Shown piece after piece: positions 8,945 to 16,501 of a DNA stretch of 28,933 bases. A program made the position numbers and the translations under genes. Under the pieces are notes generated by a model that was not told the DNA's origin, did not search any database, and saw nothing but the letters and a program-made list of their open reading frames with translations. How positions within the stretch are numbered: the first letter of the stretch is position 1; each line of letters opens with the position of its first letter. This stretch comes from a virus: IMG/VR virus record IMGVR_UViG_3300014720_000134, positions 1 to 28,933 of that record; one strand, written 5' to 3'.

Positions 8945-9083
8945 GACGAATCTTTTTTTCTTGCTCGAGCATTTCTTTAGTTGGTGCCTTTCCGGAACCT
9001 TTGTTGTTTCGAATATTATCCCACAGTCCGCGTGGTGAGTAAGACCCGTCAGCACGCTTAATCATTTTCTTCTTGGCTTTCAT
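8928..9083 (-). CDS. MKAKK-family micro-protein (51 aa)
   Basis: Reads MKAKKKMIKRADGSYSPRGL, then WDNIRNNKGSGKAPTKEMLE and a lysine-rich end. Very basic, no cysteine or membrane segment. The 'KRADGSYSPRGLWDNIR ... GSGK-PTKEML' pattern recurs in small proteins of Bacteroidota phages, as far as I recall; function unknown. Start overlaps the upstream stop (TGATG). Location amid late genes suggests a minor virion or cargo protein. Confidence 0.75.
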   Translation of the reverse strand: MKAKKKMIKRADGSYSPRGLWDNIRNNKGSGKAPTKEMLEQEKKIRRESKK

Positions 9084-9247
9084 CAGTGAGATTTCTTTAT
9101 TCGGAAGCTAGCCTCAAGCGAAGCACCTTCGTGCGGTACAAATCTACCTTCGTGCTCCATAAGGAAGTAACGACCCTTCTCAAGCATCCAGTGGTATCCA
9201 TCTGGAGCCTTGACCATAACCTTGTCTACTTTCTTCTTAGCCTTCAT
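9083..9247 (-). CDS. MKAKK-family micro-protein (54 aa)
   Basis: Reads MKAKKKVDKVMVKAPDGYHW, then MLEKGRYFLMEHEGRFVPHE and ends ASFRIKKSH. The 'VMVKAPDGYHWM ... GRFVPHEGASLEASF' pattern looks like a small protein widely shared among Bacteroidota phages. No known function. Stop overlaps the next start (TGATG), and the start overlaps the upstream gene by 11 bases. Confidence 0.75.
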   Translation of the reverse strand: MKAKKKVDKVMVKAPDGYHWMLEKGRYFLMEHEGRFVPHEGASLEASFRIKKSH

Positions 9248-9359
9248 AAGCAATTTTGTTTATAATATCAAGGTTACGAATGCCAACAGCAGAACGCCCG
9301 GCGCTTACTTTTTTTACGCCACGCTCACTTTTAATACGCTTCTTAGTAGACTTAGCCAT
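9237..9359 (-). CDS. Basic micro-protein (40 aa)
   Basis: Reads MAKSTKKRIKSERGVKKVSA then GRSAVGIRNLDIINKIAYEG. About one third of residues are K or R in the N-terminal half, suggesting DNA, RNA or capsid-interior binding. It overlaps neighbours on both sides by 8-11 bases. Not in a family I can name; support comes from tight packing in the operon and lack of any other gene in this stretch. Confidence 0.6.
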   Translation of the reverse strand: MAKSTKKRIKSERGVKKVSAGRSAVGIRNLDIINKIAYEG

Positions 9360-9522
9360 TGATGGTAACGTATTTTATTAGCTCTTTTACGCTCTGGTGA
9401 AAAGTAGTTCGGTCGTAGATGCCGTTGAAGTAGTCGAGATATGCTTCACGAGGAATAGCGGCCCACATATCCTTGTAGGGATTGTAGTGGAACACGTAAT
9501 CCATCAATGACTCATTCTTCAT
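9352..9522 (-). CDS. Small phage protein 'SLMDYVFHYNPY' family (56 aa)
   Basis: Reads MKNESLMDYVFHYNPYKDMW, then AAIPREAYLDYFNG, ending KELIKYVTING. The 'SLMDYVFHYNPY ... WAAIPR' pattern is one I associate with short proteins in other Bacteroidota phages, function unknown. It is neutral and aromatic-rich, unlike its basic neighbours. Overlaps the upstream gene by 11 bases and the downstream one by 8. Confidence 0.7.
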   Translation of the reverse strand: MKNESLMDYVFHYNPYKDMWAAIPREAYLDYFNGIYDRTTFHQSVKELIKYVTING

Positions 9523-9688
9523 CTTCGTAGAAGCAAGCCTTGAACTTGTAGCTAGTCGGCTTCTTTCCTGAAGCCTTAACAGCTGCTTCGAGCTGTTTTA
9601 CTCCTGATGCCATATCCGTAGACTTGATTTCGATTTCCTCTCCGGACATCTCCATTTTGCCTCCTTCGTAGTACTTTTTAGCTTTCAT
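9512..9688 (-). CDS. MKAKK-family small protein with YEGGK motif (58 aa)
   Basis: Reads MKAKKYYEGGKMEMSGEEIE, then IKSTDMASGVKQLEAAVKAS and ends acidic (ACFYEDEE). It shares the MKAKK N-terminus followed by Y-x-GG with the 197-aa protein at 10168-10761. First gene of the small-gene chain, preceded by a TAGTTTTG element. Function unknown; possibly packaged with the virion. Confidence 0.7.
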   Translation of the reverse strand: MKAKKYYEGGKMEMSGEEIEIKSTDMASGVKQLEAAVKASGKKPTSYKFKACFYEDEE

Positions 9689-9692
9689 ACTA

Positions 9693-9700
9693 CAAAACTA
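9693..9700 (-). promoter_or_regulatory. Bacteroidota-type -7 element (TAGTTTTG), minus strand
   Basis: Perfect TAnnTTTG match five bases before the start of the 58-aa gene, in the gap between divergent genes. Confidence 0.4.
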
Positions 9701-9719
9701 AAAAATATTTCGTCACACT

Positions 9720-9751
9720 CTTGACAACGGCATTTCAATGTCGTATACTTG
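9720..9751 (+). promoter_or_regulatory. Promoter for the signal-peptide gene
   Basis: CTTG, 20 bases, then TATACTTG fits the Bacteroidota -33/-7 layout with one mismatch in each element. The same bases also read as TTGACA, 17 bases, TATACT, a near-perfect sigma70 pattern. The start codon follows 27 bases later at 9778. Confidence 0.55.
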
Positions 9752-9777
9752 TATCAACAATCAACAATTTATCAACA

Positions 9778-10143
9778 ATGAAAAATTTAATCACTGCCGC
9801 GCTGCTCTTCTCTGGAAGCCTCTTTGCTCAGAACGTATTCCTTGGAGATAGAGAATGCTACGACCACAAATACAAGTCTGTAGTCAACACCGACGAATAC
9901 GCTAAATGGGTTATCGACGAAGAAAAGGAATGGTACCTTGCTCCCGACAGCATCGAGTCACGCATTATGACGGTAAAACAGTGGAGTGTAAAACGCCAGC
10001 AACTTAAGTCCGCCGGATTCAATGAGCTCGACTCGGAGTACTACTGGAACCCAATGACTAAAACAGTTGTATTGGTCTTCCGAACAAAGCTTGGAGATGA
10101 CAAGCGATGCATTACTACTGAGCACGGAACCGACATTAGATAA
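9778..10143 (+). CDS. Secreted or periplasmic protein of unknown function (121 aa), moron-like
   Basis: Starts MKNLITAALLFSGSLFAQNV, a clear Sec signal peptide (one K, hydrophobic core, likely cleavage after FAQ or near residue 18). The mature part is hydrophilic with two cysteines (in 'DRECYDHKYK' and 'DDKRCITTEH') that could form a disulfide in the periplasm. An upstream in-frame ATG at 9721 is less likely because it would hide the signal peptide behind 19 residues. This is the only plus-strand gene inside the minus-strand late block, with its own promoter and terminator, which is the pattern of a moron (an accessory gene expressed independently). No known family recognised; lysogenic conversion, superinfection exclusion or lysis timing are possible but unproven. 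Confidence 0.75.
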   Translation: MKNLITAALLFSGSLFAQNVFLGDRECYDHKYKSVVNTDEYAKWVIDEEKEWYLAPDSIESRIMTVKQWSVKRQQLKSAGFNELDSEYYWNPMTKTVVLVFRTKLGDDKRCITTEHGTDIR

Positions 10144-10148
10144 AAAAA

Positions 10149-10163
10149 GGGGGCGATGCCCCC
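10149..10163. terminator. Bidirectional Rho-independent terminator
   Basis: GGGGGC-GAT-GCCCCC stem, with a T-rich run following on the plus strand (TCTTTTATTT) and seven Ts following on the minus strand. It lies between the convergent ends of the signal-peptide gene and the 197-aa gene and can serve both. Confidence 0.88.
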
Positions 10164-10167
10164 TCTT

Positions 10168-11997: not shown

Positions 11998-12770
11998 CAA
12001 AGAGCGAAAGCAGCGCGAGCAGTGCTCGGCGAGCGCGTACCACTCCAAAAGCTTATAAAGCCGAAAACGAATGAACCGCTTAATGACGGCGGGAAAAGCG
12101 GGCGGCCAAACCGCCCCGCGCTAAAGGAGCCGTCTCAAGCTCGCTTCGGTTTAATCGAAAGCTACTTCACTCAGTTACTCCGTGATAACGAGGGCCACTA
12201 TACCCTGCCGGGAACAAGCTGTTCACCTGCTGATGCTTGCTTTTTTGTAGCGAACAGATTGGCGCTATACACTCTGGGGATTTTTTTGTGTTATACAGAT
12301 TGTGGGGATAATCGTATTATAAAAACGATTTCAATCGAAAACCGAAACGCAATGCCGAACCCAAGCCCCCTCGTGCAAATCGATTCGTTCCCAATGTTTT
12401 AGCGTTTTTGTAGCCAATACTAGTGACGCAACTATTCTAGAGCGTGCCTATGTTTCAGCCGAGGTTGCAATCGGTAGCCAAAAGCATCCTATAATATATA
12501 TTATGTTAACTAGCGTCTTTACAGGACCTTCTGCCCTACCCTATTCAGAGCGGTAACTGAGGTTTGGTTCGAGTCGTATTCACTCCTCCAACAACCCCCC
12601 GAACTACCCTGCTAGTACTCCCACAACGTCCCACATCTGCCCACATCCCTCCACTACGCTCAAGGTCAAATCGTTAGGTGCTATAATATAATAATGACAC
12701 ACGTAAGAAGACGCATTTAAACTTAGTGTGAAAATTTTTCTCGGTGATTATCAGCGACTTACAACTTTTT
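11998..12770 (+). other. Noncoding stretch with local hairpins, AT-rich patches and a C-rich tract
   Basis: No reading frame here looks like protein. Hairpins include CGAGC-AGT-GCTCG (12016-12028) within an outer GCG/CGC pair, and a strong GCGGGCGG / CCGCCCCGC stem (12098-12105 with 12111-12119, one bulge). AT-rich patches TATAATATATATTATG (about 12490-12505) and TATAATATAATAATG (about 12681-12695) flank a C-rich tract (12580-12660). TTATACAGA near 12292 is one base from a DnaA box. The combination would fit a replication origin or a long RNA leader; neither is proven. Confidence 0.45.
12620..12649 (-). repeat. G-quadruplex motif / 10-bp CCCACA repeats
   Basis: On the plus strand four CCC runs start at 12620, 12630, 12640 and 12647, separated by 7, 7 and 4 bases; the first three begin CCCACA at a 10-bp period. 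The minus strand therefore meets the GGG-N1-7 quadruplex pattern. It lies between two AT-rich patches. Confidence 0.6.
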
Positions 12771-12837
12771 TTTGAAGTATGCTTGACTTTCGAGTTTCGA
12801 TTATCGTACGTTTGTCTTGTCACCGACCGACAGCGCC

Positions 12838-13132
12838 CACCGAGATAGGGAAACGAGTCAGGGTCACTGCGAGGACGAAGCCTTAGGGCGGGCCGCAGAA
12901 GATGTGTAAGCGAAAAGCGTGCCTTGGGGCTGTCCCCATAACCATAGTGACCACTGAGCGAGCGGGGTTCCGCACTGCTCGGCTGAATGACCTGACGGCA
13001 CTTTGATGTACGGATGGCGGCTGAGGGTGCAGGAGTTCGGGTTTGTGGATGTGTAGCGGAGCGGCCTTGGCCGTATGAGTTCCTAGAACATATGCTACAC
13101 GGATGCAACGATGTTCACTTGCTTGCTCGGTG
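12838..13132 (+). ncRNA. Candidate structured RNA with long-range and branched helices
   Basis: A long-range 7-bp pairing CACCGAG (12838-12844) with CTCGGTG (13126-13132) encloses several mutually compatible helices. These are: GGTCACT (12862-12868) with AGTGACC (12946-12952), around a CTGCG/CGCAG helix that shares two bases with it; TGGGG-CTGT-CCCCA (about 12925-12938); CTGAGC-GA-GCGG-GGTT-CCGC-ACT-GCTCGG (12954-12982); and a three-way junction with outer stem GTGTAGC/GCTACAC (13051-13057, 13094-13100) holding CGGC-CTTG-GCCG (13062-13073) and GTTC-CTA-GAAC (13079-13089). No convincing protein frame covers it. Large structured RNAs such as GOLLD and ROOL are known from phages; membership cannot be judged by eye. 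Confidence 0.5.
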
Positions 13133-13156
13133 CCCTCAGGGCCTGACGGCCTCGTT

Positions 13157-13180
13157 GCGGTGAGACCACGGCATCACTGC
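13157..13180 (+). ncRNA. Hairpin in the structured leader
   Basis: GCGGTGA (13157-13163) pairs with TCACTGC (13174-13180) over 7 bp (one G-U), with a 10-nt loop. Upstream, GCCC-TCA-GGGC (13132-13142) and GGCC-TGAC-GGCC (about 13140-13151) are competing small hairpins. Probably part of the same RNA as 12838-13132. Confidence 0.45.
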
Positions 13181-13223
13181 GCATAACGACATAATAAGAC
13201 AACCCTGAGGAGAGCGTTCGATT

Positions 13224-13270
13224 GGGGGCGTAGCACTTCAGGTGCCGTTGGTTCGTGACCAAACGCCCTC
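13224..13270 (+). ncRNA. Compact three-way-junction RNA element in the leader of the first early gene
   Basis: An outer 8-bp stem, GGGGGCGT (13224-13231) with ACGCCCTC (13263-13270, one G-U), holds two hairpins: GCACT-TCA-GGTGC (13233-13245) and TTGGT-TCGTG-ACCAA (13248-13262). The second stacks directly on the outer stem as in a tRNA T-arm, but anticodon arm and CCA are absent. It ends 36 bases before the ATG at 13307, a position like that of the hammerheads farther on, but it has no CUGANGA or GAAA core. Confidence 0.55.
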
Positions 13271-13306
13271 TCAAATTTCACTTCACTAACACTAATTCTA
13301 AACACT

Positions 13307-13495
13307 ATGAACACTTACAATTTCTTTTACCGCGAGTACGTTAACGGAGTAGCCGTTGACAAAGCCTTTTATAGCGTAGATGCTGTTGTCCCCGCACACG
13401 AGACATCAGAGTACAAAGTTCTAGAACAACTTCAGCGTCGCGGTATCGTGACGTTATTTGGTTGGACCACGCTCACTGCGTGGGAGGTTAACTGA
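13307..13495 (+). CDS. Small hypothetical protein (62 aa), stop codon inside a hammerhead
   Basis: Reads MNTYNFFYREYVNGVAVDKA and ends LTAWEVN. Compact alpha/beta pattern with 'YRE-VNGVAVD' hairpin and a helix 'EYKVLEQLQRRG'; no family recognised. First gene after the 1.3-kb noncoding leader. Its last codons (GGTTAAC) form stem I of the first hammerhead and its TGA stop is part of the catalytic core, so ribosomes finishing this gene must melt the ribozyme. Confidence 0.7.
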   Translation: MNTYNFFYREYVNGVAVDKAFYSVDAVVPAHETSEYKVLEQLQRRGIVTLFGWTTLTAWEVN

Positions 13496-13535
13496 TGAGT
13501 CCTTAATGGACGAAACGCTGTGAAGCGTCTTAACC
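13486..13535 (+). ncRNA. Hammerhead ribozyme 1 (type I)
   Basis: Stem I GGTTAA (13486-13491) with TTAACC (13530-13535); core CTGATGA (13492-13498); stem II GTCC-TTAAT-GGAC (13499-13511); core GAAA (13512-13515); stem III CGCT-GTGA-AGCG (13516-13527) capped by a GNRA loop; then U13528 and C13529. Cleavage is expected after C13529. All invariant core bases of the hammerhead are present. The element opens in stem I, hence type I. It leaves a 21-nt leader before the ATG at 13551. Confidence 0.95.
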
Positions 13536-13550
13536 AAACACACACTAAAA

Positions 13551-13763
13551 ATGATTTTTATTCCTGCAAAGCAGTCGGACTACAATCGTCTGACGAGCAT
13601 ATCTCGTAAAAGCAGTTCGTTCAAGCGTTCTGCCGCAAATTTCGTAGCACGTGAGCGTGATATTATAGTCGGCAACACTCGTGCTGTCGTGAACTCAGTT
13701 CGCTCTTTATCACCTGACTTCAGCAACACCCGCTTGGTTTACTCTTGCGGACCTTTAGTTTAA
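13551..13763 (+). CDS. Small basic hypothetical protein (70 aa)
   Basis: Reads MIFIPAKQSDYNRLTSISRK, then a run rich in S, R and K, ending RLVYSCGPLV. Basic and with no recognised motif. It is the first gene on the RNA released by hammerhead 1. No ribozyme follows it: the 37-base gap to 13801 is AT-rich and carries two TTAACC-like words but no hammerhead core. Confidence 0.55.
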   Translation: MIFIPAKQSDYNRLTSISRKSSSFKRSAANFVARERDIIVGNTRAVVNSVRSLSPDFSNTRLVYSCGPLV

Positions 13764-13800
13764 CCATCAATCAATTAACCAACATTTAAATTTATTTCTT

Positions 13801-14388
13801 ATGAAAACTTTCAAAACAGGAGACCGCGTAGTTTATAACCGCAAATCAACCGCAATCGCACCCCGCGGAATTTATGATGGAGCCAAGGGAACCATCGCAG
13901 ATGTTGATTCCCTACTCGTAGAGTTTGACGATAACGTCAGAGGCCACAATGGTGGTCTTGATGGGGTTGTGGTAAAAGAAGGTCACGGATGGTATGTAAA
14001 CAGCGCTGACATCAAAAAAGTCCGTGGACGTAAGAAAAAAGTAGATGCTGTTCAATCTGCTAAAGAAGTACTAGACGATTTGTTCGGCAAACTCTCTTCT
14101 CTACCTGATGATGAGATTCAAGAACTCTTCGGGATGGTAACCGCCAAAAAGGCTGAGAAAAAGCAAGCCTACTTTGATTTCGATAATGAGTGCGTCATCA
14201 ACGGAAAAATATCAAGTAAGCCGTTATACATCCGTATAGGACTAGCAAACGATGGCTTCGAGAGTAAAGAAATCGGCTTCGATAGCACCTTCACTCCGAT
14301 TGTCTGCAAAGGCTATGGAGACGATATTGAAGAGATTGAACTCACTTCAGACCACTACATTCGGTTCAGGTTAACTGATGAGGCTTAA
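13801..14388 (+). CDS. Hypothetical protein with SH3-like N-terminal domain (195 aa)
   Basis: Residues 1-75 ('FKTGDRVVYNRKSTAI', 'GAKGTIADVDSLLVEFDDNV', 'GHGWYVNSADIKKV') have the five-strand pattern of an SH3/KOW-like barrel. A basic linker (RGRKKK) and a helical part (about 80-120, 'SAKEVLDDLFGKLSSLPDDE') follow, then a beta-rich C-terminal part from about 125. Possibly a nucleic-acid or protein adaptor, by fold pattern only. Its TAA stop (14386-14388) lies in the stem II loop of hammerhead 2, so its last six codons encode stem I, core and half of stem II. Confidence 0.75.
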   Translation: MKTFKTGDRVVYNRKSTAIAPRGIYDGAKGTIADVDSLLVEFDDNVRGHNGGLDGVVVKEGHGWYVNSADIKKVRGRKKKVDAVQSAKEVLDDLFGKLSSLPDDEIQELFGMVTAKKAEKKQAYFDFDNECVINGKISSKPLYIRIGLANDGFESKEIGFDSTFTPIVCKGYGDDIEEIELTSDHYIRFRLTDEA

Positions 14389-14418
14389 ATAGCCGAAACC
14401 CCTTCGGGGGTCTTAACC
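14369..14418 (+). ncRNA. Hammerhead ribozyme 2 (type I)
   Basis: Stem I GGTTAA (14369-14374) with TTAACC (14413-14418); core CTGATGA (14375-14381); stem II GGCT-TAAAT-AGCC (14382-14394); GAAA (14395-14398); stem III CCCC-TTCG-GGGG (14399-14410) with a UUCG tetraloop; U14411, C14412. Cleavage is expected after C14412. Stems II and III differ from hammerhead 1 by compensated changes on both sides. The next ATG is 28 nt beyond the cut, at 14441. Confidence 0.95.
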
Positions 14419-14440
14419 ATAAACGCTAAAACAAAAAACT

Positions 14441-14629
14441 ATGAGCAAGAGAATTATTGAATGCCAGGATGGTCACAAGTTTATTGACGTGACTGACATT
14501 GCTAAATTGATTTGGGAATCAGTAGATGTGGAACTTTATGAACTTGATGATGATGGAACTGAACATCTGATTAATGACAAGGAACATTTTGACAGGGCAA
14601 TCAGCCAATCTAAAATCGTAATTGAATAA
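14441..14629 (+). CDS. Acidic hypothetical protein (62 aa)
   Basis: Reads MSKRIIECQDGHKFIDVTDI, then 'LYELDDDGTEHLIND' and a final helix to KIVIE. Acidic, alpha/beta, unrecognised. First gene after hammerhead 2 and ten bases before the next gene, so likely translated together with it. Confidence 0.7.
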   Translation: MSKRIIECQDGHKFIDVTDIAKLIWESVDVELYELDDDGTEHLINDKEHFDRAISQSKIVIE

Positions 14630-14638
14630 CCTAAAACA

Positions 14639-14815
14639 ATGAAGCAAATTTTAACTATTGGCGCACTTCGCAAGGCGACGGCGCACCTTAATGACGCGGA
14701 CGTTGTCGTCGTAGAAATACACGAAGGCGTTCGACACGAGGACTTGTACACGTTTAGCGTTGACGACTCAATAGAGTTGAGCGAAGGCGTGCGCGAGGTT
14801 CGTTTTTGTATTTAA
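14639..14815 (+). CDS. Small hypothetical protein (58 aa)
   Basis: Reads MKQILTIGALRKATAHLNDA, then 'DVVVVEIHEGVRHEDLYTFS' and ends EVRFCI. The pattern is a beta strand, a helix, then three strands. No known family. Its base composition is a little more GC-rich than its neighbours. It fills the gap between the 62- and 65-aa genes exactly, which supports it as real. Confidence 0.65.
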   Translation: MKQILTIGALRKATAHLNDADVVVVEIHEGVRHEDLYTFSVDDSIELSEGVREVRFCI

Positions 14816-14836
14816 TCTAAATTCCTATTTAACACT

Positions 14837-15034
14837 ATGGAAAAGTATTTATTTTATCAGTTCGAGATAAATTTTCTAGAGAGGAGTGACGAGGACTACT
14901 TTGTTTCGTACACCGATAGAAAACGAGGCAAGTACGTATCTCAAGACGAAGCCTTGATTATGGCGTACGAAGATGCCGTAAAGAAGAACTTCGGAAAGTT
15001 TGCAATTACCTACGTTAAATCATTTTTTGCCTAA
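14837..15034 (+). CDS. Small hypothetical protein (65 aa)
   Basis: Reads MEKYLFYQFEINFLERSDED, then 'YFVSYTDRKRGKYVSQDEAL' and a C-terminal helix ending KSFFA. No recognised family. It ends four bases before the likely start of the next gene. Confidence 0.7.
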   Translation: MEKYLFYQFEINFLERSDEDYFVSYTDRKRGKYVSQDEALIMAYEDAVKKNFGKFAITYVKSFFA

Positions 15035-15038
15035 CGCT

Positions 15039-15407
15039 ATGAAACTTGAAGATATGGACCTCAGCAAACTTCAGTTAACCATCACTGAAGACAAAGAACT
15101 ACAGCACTGCATCATCGAATTGTTCCACGATGGAGGTAGGCTTCAATCTTGGGATGTAAGAACAGGACTCACGACCCCTGAGTTGACGTACACCGCTACG
15201 CTAGATGAAGCCCTAGAAGATGAGTGGTTTGCGTTCGCACTCAGCGGTAAACGAGAGGAGTACGATATGAACATATGGTACAACGAAGACGGAAACATCC
15301 AAGCCGCCATCTACCCGATGGAGTATGACGAGGACGGAGATTACTGCGACACGAACACCGCTATTCTAGTACATCTATTTACCCCTGAGCAAATAGAGGT
15401 TAACTGA
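15039..15407 (+). CDS. Acidic hypothetical protein (122 aa), stop inside hammerhead 3
   Basis: I choose ATG 15039 (MKLEDMDLSKLQLTITEDKE) because the in-frame ATG at 15000 lies inside the preceding gene. Strongly acidic, with 'YDMNIWYNEDGNIQAAIYPM' followed by a YDEDGDYCD stretch in the second half; ends TPEQIEVN. No family recognised. As with the first hammerhead gene, its final codons GAG GTT AAC TGA form stem I and the core start of a ribozyme. Confidence 0.75.
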   Translation: MKLEDMDLSKLQLTITEDKELQHCIIELFHDGGRLQSWDVRTGLTTPELTYTATLDEALEDEWFAFALSGKREEYDMNIWYNEDGNIQAAIYPMEYDEDGDYCDTNTAILVHLFTPEQIEVN

Positions 15408-15447
15408 CGAGCCTTAAGTAGGCGAAACGCCGTGAGGCGTCTTAACC
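15398..15447 (+). ncRNA. Hammerhead ribozyme 3 (type I)
   Basis: Stem I GGTTAA (15398-15403) with TTAACC (15442-15447); core CTGACGA (15404-15410), where the C replaces U at the tolerated position 7; stem II GCCT-TAAGT-AGGC (15411-15423); GAAA (15424-15427); stem III CGCC-GTGA-GGCG (15428-15439) with a GNRA loop; U15440, C15441. Cleavage is expected after C15441, leaving a 21-nt leader before the ATG at 15463. Confidence 0.95.
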
Positions 15448-15462
15448 ATAAACACTAATAAA

Positions 15463-15666
15463 ATGAATACTTCAATTGATAATATCATCGCATACGAAAA
15501 CAGAGAACTAACTGACCAAGAGGTAGTGTACTTGTTCGCTGAACTCGTAAAGAGCGGTATGGCTTGGACCCTACAAGGTCACTACGGACGTACTGCATCT
15601 GCATTAATTGAGCACGGATACATTGACCGAGAAGGTAACGTATCACTTGCTGTTCTAGAACTTTAA
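15463..15666 (+). CDS. Small conserved phage protein, 'LQGHYGR' family (67 aa)
   Basis: Contains 'VKSGMAWTLQGHYGRTASAL' followed by 'IEHGYID', a pattern I recognise from short early proteins of many phages (function unknown). It is alpha-helical with a conserved core and ends shortly after. First gene on the RNA released by hammerhead 3. Confidence 0.78.
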   Translation: MNTSIDNIIAYENRELTDQEVVYLFAELVKSGMAWTLQGHYGRTASALIEHGYIDREGNVSLAVLEL

Positions 15667-16478: not shown

Positions 16479-16501
16479 GAGGGGGCACGGCCCCTCGTTT
16501 T
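16479..16501 (+). terminator. Rho-independent terminator closing the hammerhead operon
   Basis: GAGGGG (16479-16484) pairs with CCCCTC (16491-16496) across a 6-nt loop and is followed by GTTTT. It lies 40 bases past the stop at 16438. Confidence 0.75.

Follow-up and report, generated by a model that had tools for sequence, protein, structure and literature searches.

Hammerhead ribozymes between phage genes as putative insulators of exchangeable accessory genes

Why would a phage place several self-cutting RNAs between ordinary genes of one operon? The question is raised by a 28,933-nt stretch of viral DNA, positions 1 to 28,933 of the IMG/VR record IMGVR_UViG_3300014720_000134 (hereafter the window, meaning the whole stretch that was analysed), which contains three hammerhead ribozymes in series. 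Bacterial hammerheads and twisters were found in 2023 to be enriched near certain genes, most strongly for Mu-like phages, and near other ribozymes, and the reason for the ribozyme-gene association was stated to be still unknown (PMC10085705). According to Perreault et al. 2011, multiple prophage hammerheads flank genes or short gene blocks whose content is not constant; cutting into gene-length mRNAs was proposed, three arrays were active in vitro, and a triple array was active in Escherichia coli (PMC3088659). In the window and related loci, stop and start codons fit closely around the predicted cuts, and the gene content changes at the ribozyme junctions. These features turn the open question into a specific proposal, the insulation of exchangeable genes: the type I hammerheads rather probably cut the polycistronic phage transcript co-transcriptionally and so insulate its exchangeable accessory genes. 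As for the enrichment statement, Weinberg et al. 2015 is said to be the likely source of part of it.

The three elements are the following:

13486..13535, plus strand: hammerhead ribozyme 1, type I; predicted cut between 13529 and 13530
14369..14418, plus strand: hammerhead ribozyme 2, type I; predicted cut between 14412 and 14413
15398..15447, plus strand: hammerhead ribozyme 3, type I; predicted cut between 15441 and 15442

Each ribozyme is 50 nt long, and all three span 1962 bp between open reading frames (ORFs) on the same strand. The cores of ribozymes 1, 2 and 3 read CUGAUGA, CUGAUGA and CUGACGA, respectively, and all contain GAAA and the cleavage triplet GUC. Stem I (GGTTAA/TTAACC) is common to the three; stems II and III differ, yet stay paired. 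The stem III loops are GTGA, TTCG and GTGA. Stems II and III are closed by loops and stem I is open, which is the type I layout. A whole-structure scan of both strands of the window returned exactly these three elements, with none on the minus strand; the same scan found no hammerhead in 200 window-length Markov sequences. The scan bore out the coordinates, core, stems, loops and triplet given in an earlier note on this DNA. Two further points of that note were confirmed: the paired substitutions in the stems, and the serial arrangement of the three type I hammerheads, which lie between phage genes of one strand. The inner fragments of 883 and 1029 nt that it listed follow exactly from the predicted cuts; its outer ends, near 12003 and 16500, are guesses. 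The minimum-energy fold is the hammerhead for ribozymes 1 and 2. By their sequences, the three elements are well-formed type I hammerhead ribozymes, and self-cutting is predicted for them.

The Rfam hammerhead models, which the earlier note had proposed as a check, do find the elements, with all scores under the curated cut-offs. Hammerhead_1 (RF00163, cut-off 34) gives 28.1 bits (E 3.5e-4) for ribozyme 1 and 22.2 bits (E 0.032) for ribozyme 3; ribozyme 2 is matched by Hammerhead_HH9 (RF02275, cut-off 52) alone, with 17.9 bits (E 0.51). At the curated cut-offs, Rfam 15 calls only a tRNA in the window and no ribozyme. These cut-offs were rejected as the sole test, because they would miss all three window ribozymes. 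Further loci, numbered here with L, were fetched by hammerhead patterns or as relatives of such loci, and some of them overlap or are near-duplicates. No copy in 16 array loci reaches the Rfam gathering score for hammerheads, so the threshold, which governs detection and is no property of the ribozyme, is strict for this short subtype; the other Rfam models found no further ribozyme class in these 16 loci, and one DUF805b motif. The window copies have the core, the three stems, the open stem I and the cleavage triplet in common with RF00163 and RF02275. The short copies of the window type nevertheless score below both cut-offs, and their strong traits are a UNANU loop II, an A before stem I and usually AA after it. 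One model was made from 23 equal-length copies, the window's three among them; model R1 gives 74.4 bits for ribozyme 1, which is itself among the model's sequences.

The 100% pairing in copies picked by the structural scan is partly circular, because the scan itself required pairing. The test was therefore based on a pattern without pairing, which fixes only the core bases and three inner stem I bases, and its 356 distinct matches were examined with the geometry kept fixed. Stems II and III, 4 bp each, are both formed in 229 of the 356, whereas reshuffling the 3' strands among the matches (200 rounds) gave 1.8 on average and never more than 6. The stem pairing is real and far beyond chance. 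In a set of 291 non-identical copies, loop II follows U-N-A-N-U (U in 234/235, A in 206/235, U in 195/235). An A stands just before stem I in 285 of the 291 copies, and the two bases after stem I are mostly A (259 and 217). The UNANU loop and the A and AA flanks could form a tertiary contact between loop II and stem I.

The ribozymes are fitted closely into the gene junctions, which are made up as follows:

13307..13495, plus strand: gene A, ORF of 62 amino acids, unknown function; stop TGA inside ribozyme 1, C-terminus ..EVN
13530..13550, plus strand: 21-nt leader after cut 1, to the ATG at 13551
13551..14388, plus strand: variable block 1, ORFs 13551-13763 (70 amino acids) and 13801-14388 (195 amino acids)
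14413..14440, plus strand: 28-nt leader after cut 2, to the ATG at 14441
14441..15407, plus strand: variable block 2, ORFs 14441, 14639, 14837 and 15039
15442..15462, plus strand: 21-nt leader after cut 3, to the ATG at 15463
15463..15666, plus strand: gene B, 67 amino acids, function unknown (phrog_3908 / DUF7417); borders the array in relatives

The stop TAG of ORF 13801-14388 lies inside ribozyme 2, and the stop TGA of ORF 15039 inside ribozyme 3. Relatives of gene A in L124 and L127 (74% identity) likewise stand directly before a hammerhead. The fit was measured on 240 non-identical ribozymes with enough surrounding sequence, with an ORF minimum of 40 codons. An ATG of such an ORF lies 15-45 nt past the cut in 200 of the 240 (83%), as against 15% at random positions on the same strand and 4% on the antisense strand. 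The distance from cut to start has a median of 23 nt (interquartile range 21-28) over all copies with a start. On the other side, an upstream ORF ends between -60 and +40 of the ribozyme start in 220/240, and its stop lies inside the ribozyme in 136/240 (57%), mostly as the TAA of stem I or the TGA of the core. Hammerheads on bacterial genome contigs, with the L428 array excluded, show the start-codon fit in only 4 of 29 cases; the fit therefore belongs to the phage array type.

Gene content between the same flanking genes was then compared. The order is A-ribozyme-B in L127, A-ribozyme-one gene-ribozyme-B in L124, and A-ribozyme-two genes-ribozyme-four genes-ribozyme-B in the window. In L124 and L127, nothing like variable block 1 lies between A and B, and a relative of ORF 14441 sits downstream of gene B in L310/L311. 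Rightward of B's ribozyme, L310 matches L124, and L311 matches L127, at 98-99% identity for kilobases. Gene B led to a second group, in which different units lie between the same flanking genes: F9 and F5, F19 and F20, or F5 alone, each with its own ribozyme ahead of it. Among all fetched array loci, clean gain or loss between two ribozymes was seen in eight locus pairs (some share a locus, about seven lineages), together with four swaps. Homology stops within or at the ribozyme in these clean cases.

The exchange was quantified by comparing junction against junction, with collinear split alignments treated as intact. The two genes beside a junction were no longer neighbours in the partner locus in 187 of 207 comparisons at ribozyme junctions (90%), versus 995 of 1572 comparisons at non-ribozyme junctions within 4 kb (63%). 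The difference is 0.27, with a 95% bootstrap interval by locus of 0.21-0.33 among representative loci; comparisons within one locus are not independent, which the bootstrap by locus meets partly. The excess persists when identity is set at 75% or 85% and when the window's group is left out. It also persists against wide-gap junctions only, where it is lower at the 75% and 85% thresholds. A uniform-position null for the homology breakpoints (8.9% at ribozymes versus 2.0%) was judged unfair and replaced, since breakpoints lie at gene junctions in any case and alignments are lengthened by similarity between ribozymes. These comparisons suggest that the ribozymes mark places of gene exchange between related phages.

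The same observations might be explained by plain mRNA processing. The cuts would then set the relative amounts or the stability of the mRNAs through their 5'-OH and cyclic phosphate ends, and the genes would vary because accessory regions are variable anyway. The change of neighbours in 63% of the comparisons at nearby non-ribozyme junctions fits this explanation, and gene-length mRNA processing is what Perreault et al. propose (PMC3088659). However, it would leave out why the excess at ribozymes persists inside the same loci, when the identity threshold is varied and when gaps are of similar length, and why homology in the clean cases breaks off inside or at the ribozyme. Plain processing is considered unlikely as the full account.

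The ribozymes might also be kept mainly as short homology tracts for recombination, forming mosaic boundaries, with cutting secondary. Outer stem I is identical more often within a locus (51%) than between loci (14%), as such a role would favour. The single ribozyme of L311 is a further case: its left flank and first half are as in one L310 copy, and its second half and leader as in the other. Recombination alone, however, needs neither the pairing that the differing stems II and III maintain nor the conserved core, and the fit from stop to start points to a constraint on RNA or translation. Variant cores are few, a minority among those examined in a sample from core-dependent searches. A role mainly as homology tracts is therefore quite improbable.

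Insulation of exchangeable genes by cutting would work as follows. The nascent polycistronic transcript would be cut between genes by each hammerhead. The upstream stop lies in or beside the 5' strand of the ribozyme and the next start about 20-30 nt past the predicted cut, so that every reading frame would stay whole after cutting. The downstream mRNA would begin with a 5'-OH end and a short leader of 20-30 nt; the upstream mRNA would keep its stop codon and would end in structured, hairpin-rich RNA carrying a 2',3'-cyclic phosphate. Each gene or small block would become an independent mRNA unit, whose leader does not depend on its neighbour, and accessory genes might be exchanged without disturbing each other's expression. 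Insulation would account for the exchangeable small genes that sit behind the ribozymes. On this proposal, cutting in the window would occur during transcription, would act on translation or stability, and insulation would be the selected trait. The idea in the earlier note that the polycistronic transcript is divided gains support from the prophage arrays, for which in vitro and E. coli evidence has been published (PMC3088659).

Several points weigh against this proposal. The energy model, which takes no account of tertiary contacts, favours a rival fold of ribozyme 3 over the hammerhead by 1.6 kcal/mol. As translation of the upstream gene ends, the ribosome would sit on the 5' part of the ribozyme and could thereby restrict cutting. 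The loci in the neighbour-change comparison all bear hammerheads and were mostly fetched for them, and thus form a selected set; in addition, ORFs were called mechanically.

The insulation proposal has a close parallel in the engineered insulator RiboJ, a hammerhead just ahead of the ribosome-binding region that removes the upstream leader and standardises the 5' end. RiboJ normalises leaders (PMC7536230), and with it protein levels in E. coli rise 2- to 10-fold (PMC6206723). The window copies match this position, with 21, 28 and 21 nt from cut to ATG; the median in the 240 copies is 23 nt. The differences are that RiboJ is engineered, has an added hairpin after it and sits behind a promoter, whereas the window copies lie between operon genes. 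A more extended proposal is that the ribozymes are natural gene insulators, in which ribozyme, leader and gene form one exchangeable module that related phages shuffle among themselves through the ribozyme sequences, and cutting frees each mRNA from its neighbours; this is put forward tentatively, at slightly less than an even chance. Insulation of this kind would be a natural counterpart of the insulators of synthetic biology. The cultured carriers phi19:3, elemoB and elemoE make the insulation proposal testable in infection.

Paired cuts might instead free a gene-sized RNA, which would then be circularised or ligated to another fragment in the manner of a retrozyme. The identical stem I strands of the window array could pair in trans, and 5'-OH and cyclic phosphate ends suit ligases of the RtcB type. 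The normal start and stop codons left by the predicted cuts point to linear mRNAs instead, and Perreault et al. sought spliced or circular products and detected none (PMC3088659), which makes ligation very improbable. That the elements are chance or non-functional relics, as the sub-threshold Rfam scores might suggest, is scarcely credible, since the Markov sequences gave none, position and flanks are conserved, and the pairing test (229 double pairings versus 1.8 expected) already contradicts it.

Other known systems share some of these features. The prophage arrays resemble the window in having several hammerheads of the same orientation flanking phage genes, but they come from prophage genomes, whereas the window contig looks virulent-type and related to phages of Flavobacteriales; the accessible part of that publication contains no count of start and stop distances and no gene-exchange test at ribozymes (PMC3088659). 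The same paper describes HHphage of the haloviruses HF1/HF2, a hammerhead that precedes the start codon of an early helicase gene by 13 nt (PMC3088659). Like the window copies, it lies shortly ahead of a start codon in a lytic virus; unlike them, it is a single, structurally variant ribozyme of an archaeal virus. Theta ribozymes, which are hepatitis delta virus (HDV)-like, are self-cleaving and phage-borne as well, but have a different fold; they are linked to tRNA-based recoding in gut phages rather than to ordinary gene junctions (PMC10879173). Retrozymes and viroid-like circular RNAs have more than one hammerhead per transcript, as in the window. The direct repeats of retrozymes bound a non-coding replicating unit, however, whereas different coding sequences lie between the window copies. 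Integron-like cassettes use a fixed integrase site; the array breakpoints are spread over several positions, either inside the ribozymes or at them.

Arrays of this kind are not unusual. Two pattern scans of viral contigs returned at least 120 and at least 119 stretches, and most matches form full hammerheads. Two or more hammerheads were found in 72 fetched loci, with all copies on one strand in 72/72, and neighbouring ribozymes in arrays have a median spacing of 505 nt. The longest array among the fetched loci has eight hammerheads in 5.8 kb (L428, JAAGZR010000219.1, a contig binned as Aliivibrio). L428 and the viral contig L019 have ribozyme-bounded genes in common, so L428 is probably a phage contig. 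Uniqueness of the window array was rejected. The view in the earlier note that three hammerheads in series are unusual is not supported by these counts, nor by the clustered prophage hammerheads of the 2011 paper (PMC3088659). As arrays have been known since then, the window array is no new kind but a fresh example. Neither the codon-fit measurement nor the junction-against-junction exchange test turned up in the literature searched, which mostly leaves out subscription papers, and no priority is claimed.

Among cultured phages, no ribozyme array was found using four query sequences. Single ribozymes occur in the following:

Flavobacterium phage elemoB_14-3B, NC_062741 17213-17270, minus strand: one small ribozyme
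Flavobacterium phage elemoE_6-9C, NC_055854 16304-16361, minus strand: one small ribozyme
Cellulophaga phage phi19:3, NC_021789 21769-21817, minus strand: one small ribozyme
Agrobacterium phage OLIVR1, 3960-4009, plus strand: one ribozyme, weaker context
Pelagibacter phages HTVC019P, HTVC131P, HTVC142P and Jormungand: one ribozyme each, weaker

CcrColossus was considered as a further carrier and dropped, because its match is due to the hairpin only. In L308 4035-4331 (NC_062741.1 gp69), the annotated start lies inside the hammerhead, and translation more likely begins at the ATG located 22 nt past the ribozyme end. The chromosomal hammerheads of Legionella loci (L415, L421, L430, L407 and others) have a longer loop II and no start codon nearby. 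They have a downstream sequence in common (CCACTTCATTCCCTAACTCTG-like) and represent a different, repeated element.

Variants escape the strict scan when an additional T separates the core from stem II (L312, L319, L320 and L321) or when U4C is present (L312). The variant-core ribozymes are:

L312, 4559-4611
L312, 5005-5054
L319, 4778-4828
L320, 4321-4373
L136, 6422-6553

They deviate by an extra T, by U4C or by a long stretch inserted into the ribozyme, and such variants are kept at the same gene junctions in several contigs.

The window contig belongs to a phage related to phages of Flavobacteriales. It has tailed-phage marker genes (terminase, portal, endolysin, primase/helicase, MazG-like and ribonucleotide reductase), and its terminase is nearest, among named phages, to an uncultured podovirus (46%), Maribacter phage Panino and the Flavobacterium elemo phages (39%), and then Cellulophaga phages. 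No integrase was seen among the scanned window proteins, which are a part of all and were not searched systematically for integrases; the phage looks virulent-type. The ribozyme array opens a rightward gene block and is preceded by a 1.4-kb stretch without a convincing gene. The features around the array are:

12784..12814, plus strand: candidate Bacteroidota-type promoter, TTG-N21-TACGTTTG, from sequence inspection and alignment
12818..13278, plus strand: conserved and non-coding, at the start (5') of the presumed operon; may be a structured RNA
16479..16501, plus strand: possible intrinsic terminator, GAGGGG-loop-CCCCTC then TTTT, seen by eye

The promoter candidate was picked for its match to the Bacteroidota consensus; the strict pattern (TTTG) has no match upstream of the array, this candidate included. 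The terminator scan did not report 16479..16501. Within 12818-13278, blocks are near-identical in L124, L127 and L135 while the flanks drift, with few relatives found. The ends of this stretch are able to pair with each other, and its folding energy is ordinary (z -1.3); Rfam gave no match for it up to E 5. It is a candidate structured RNA heading the presumed operon. A second stretch of the window without a convincing gene, 9056-10167, has 70-78% identity in many relatives, and parts of it also occur in the gene-B group.

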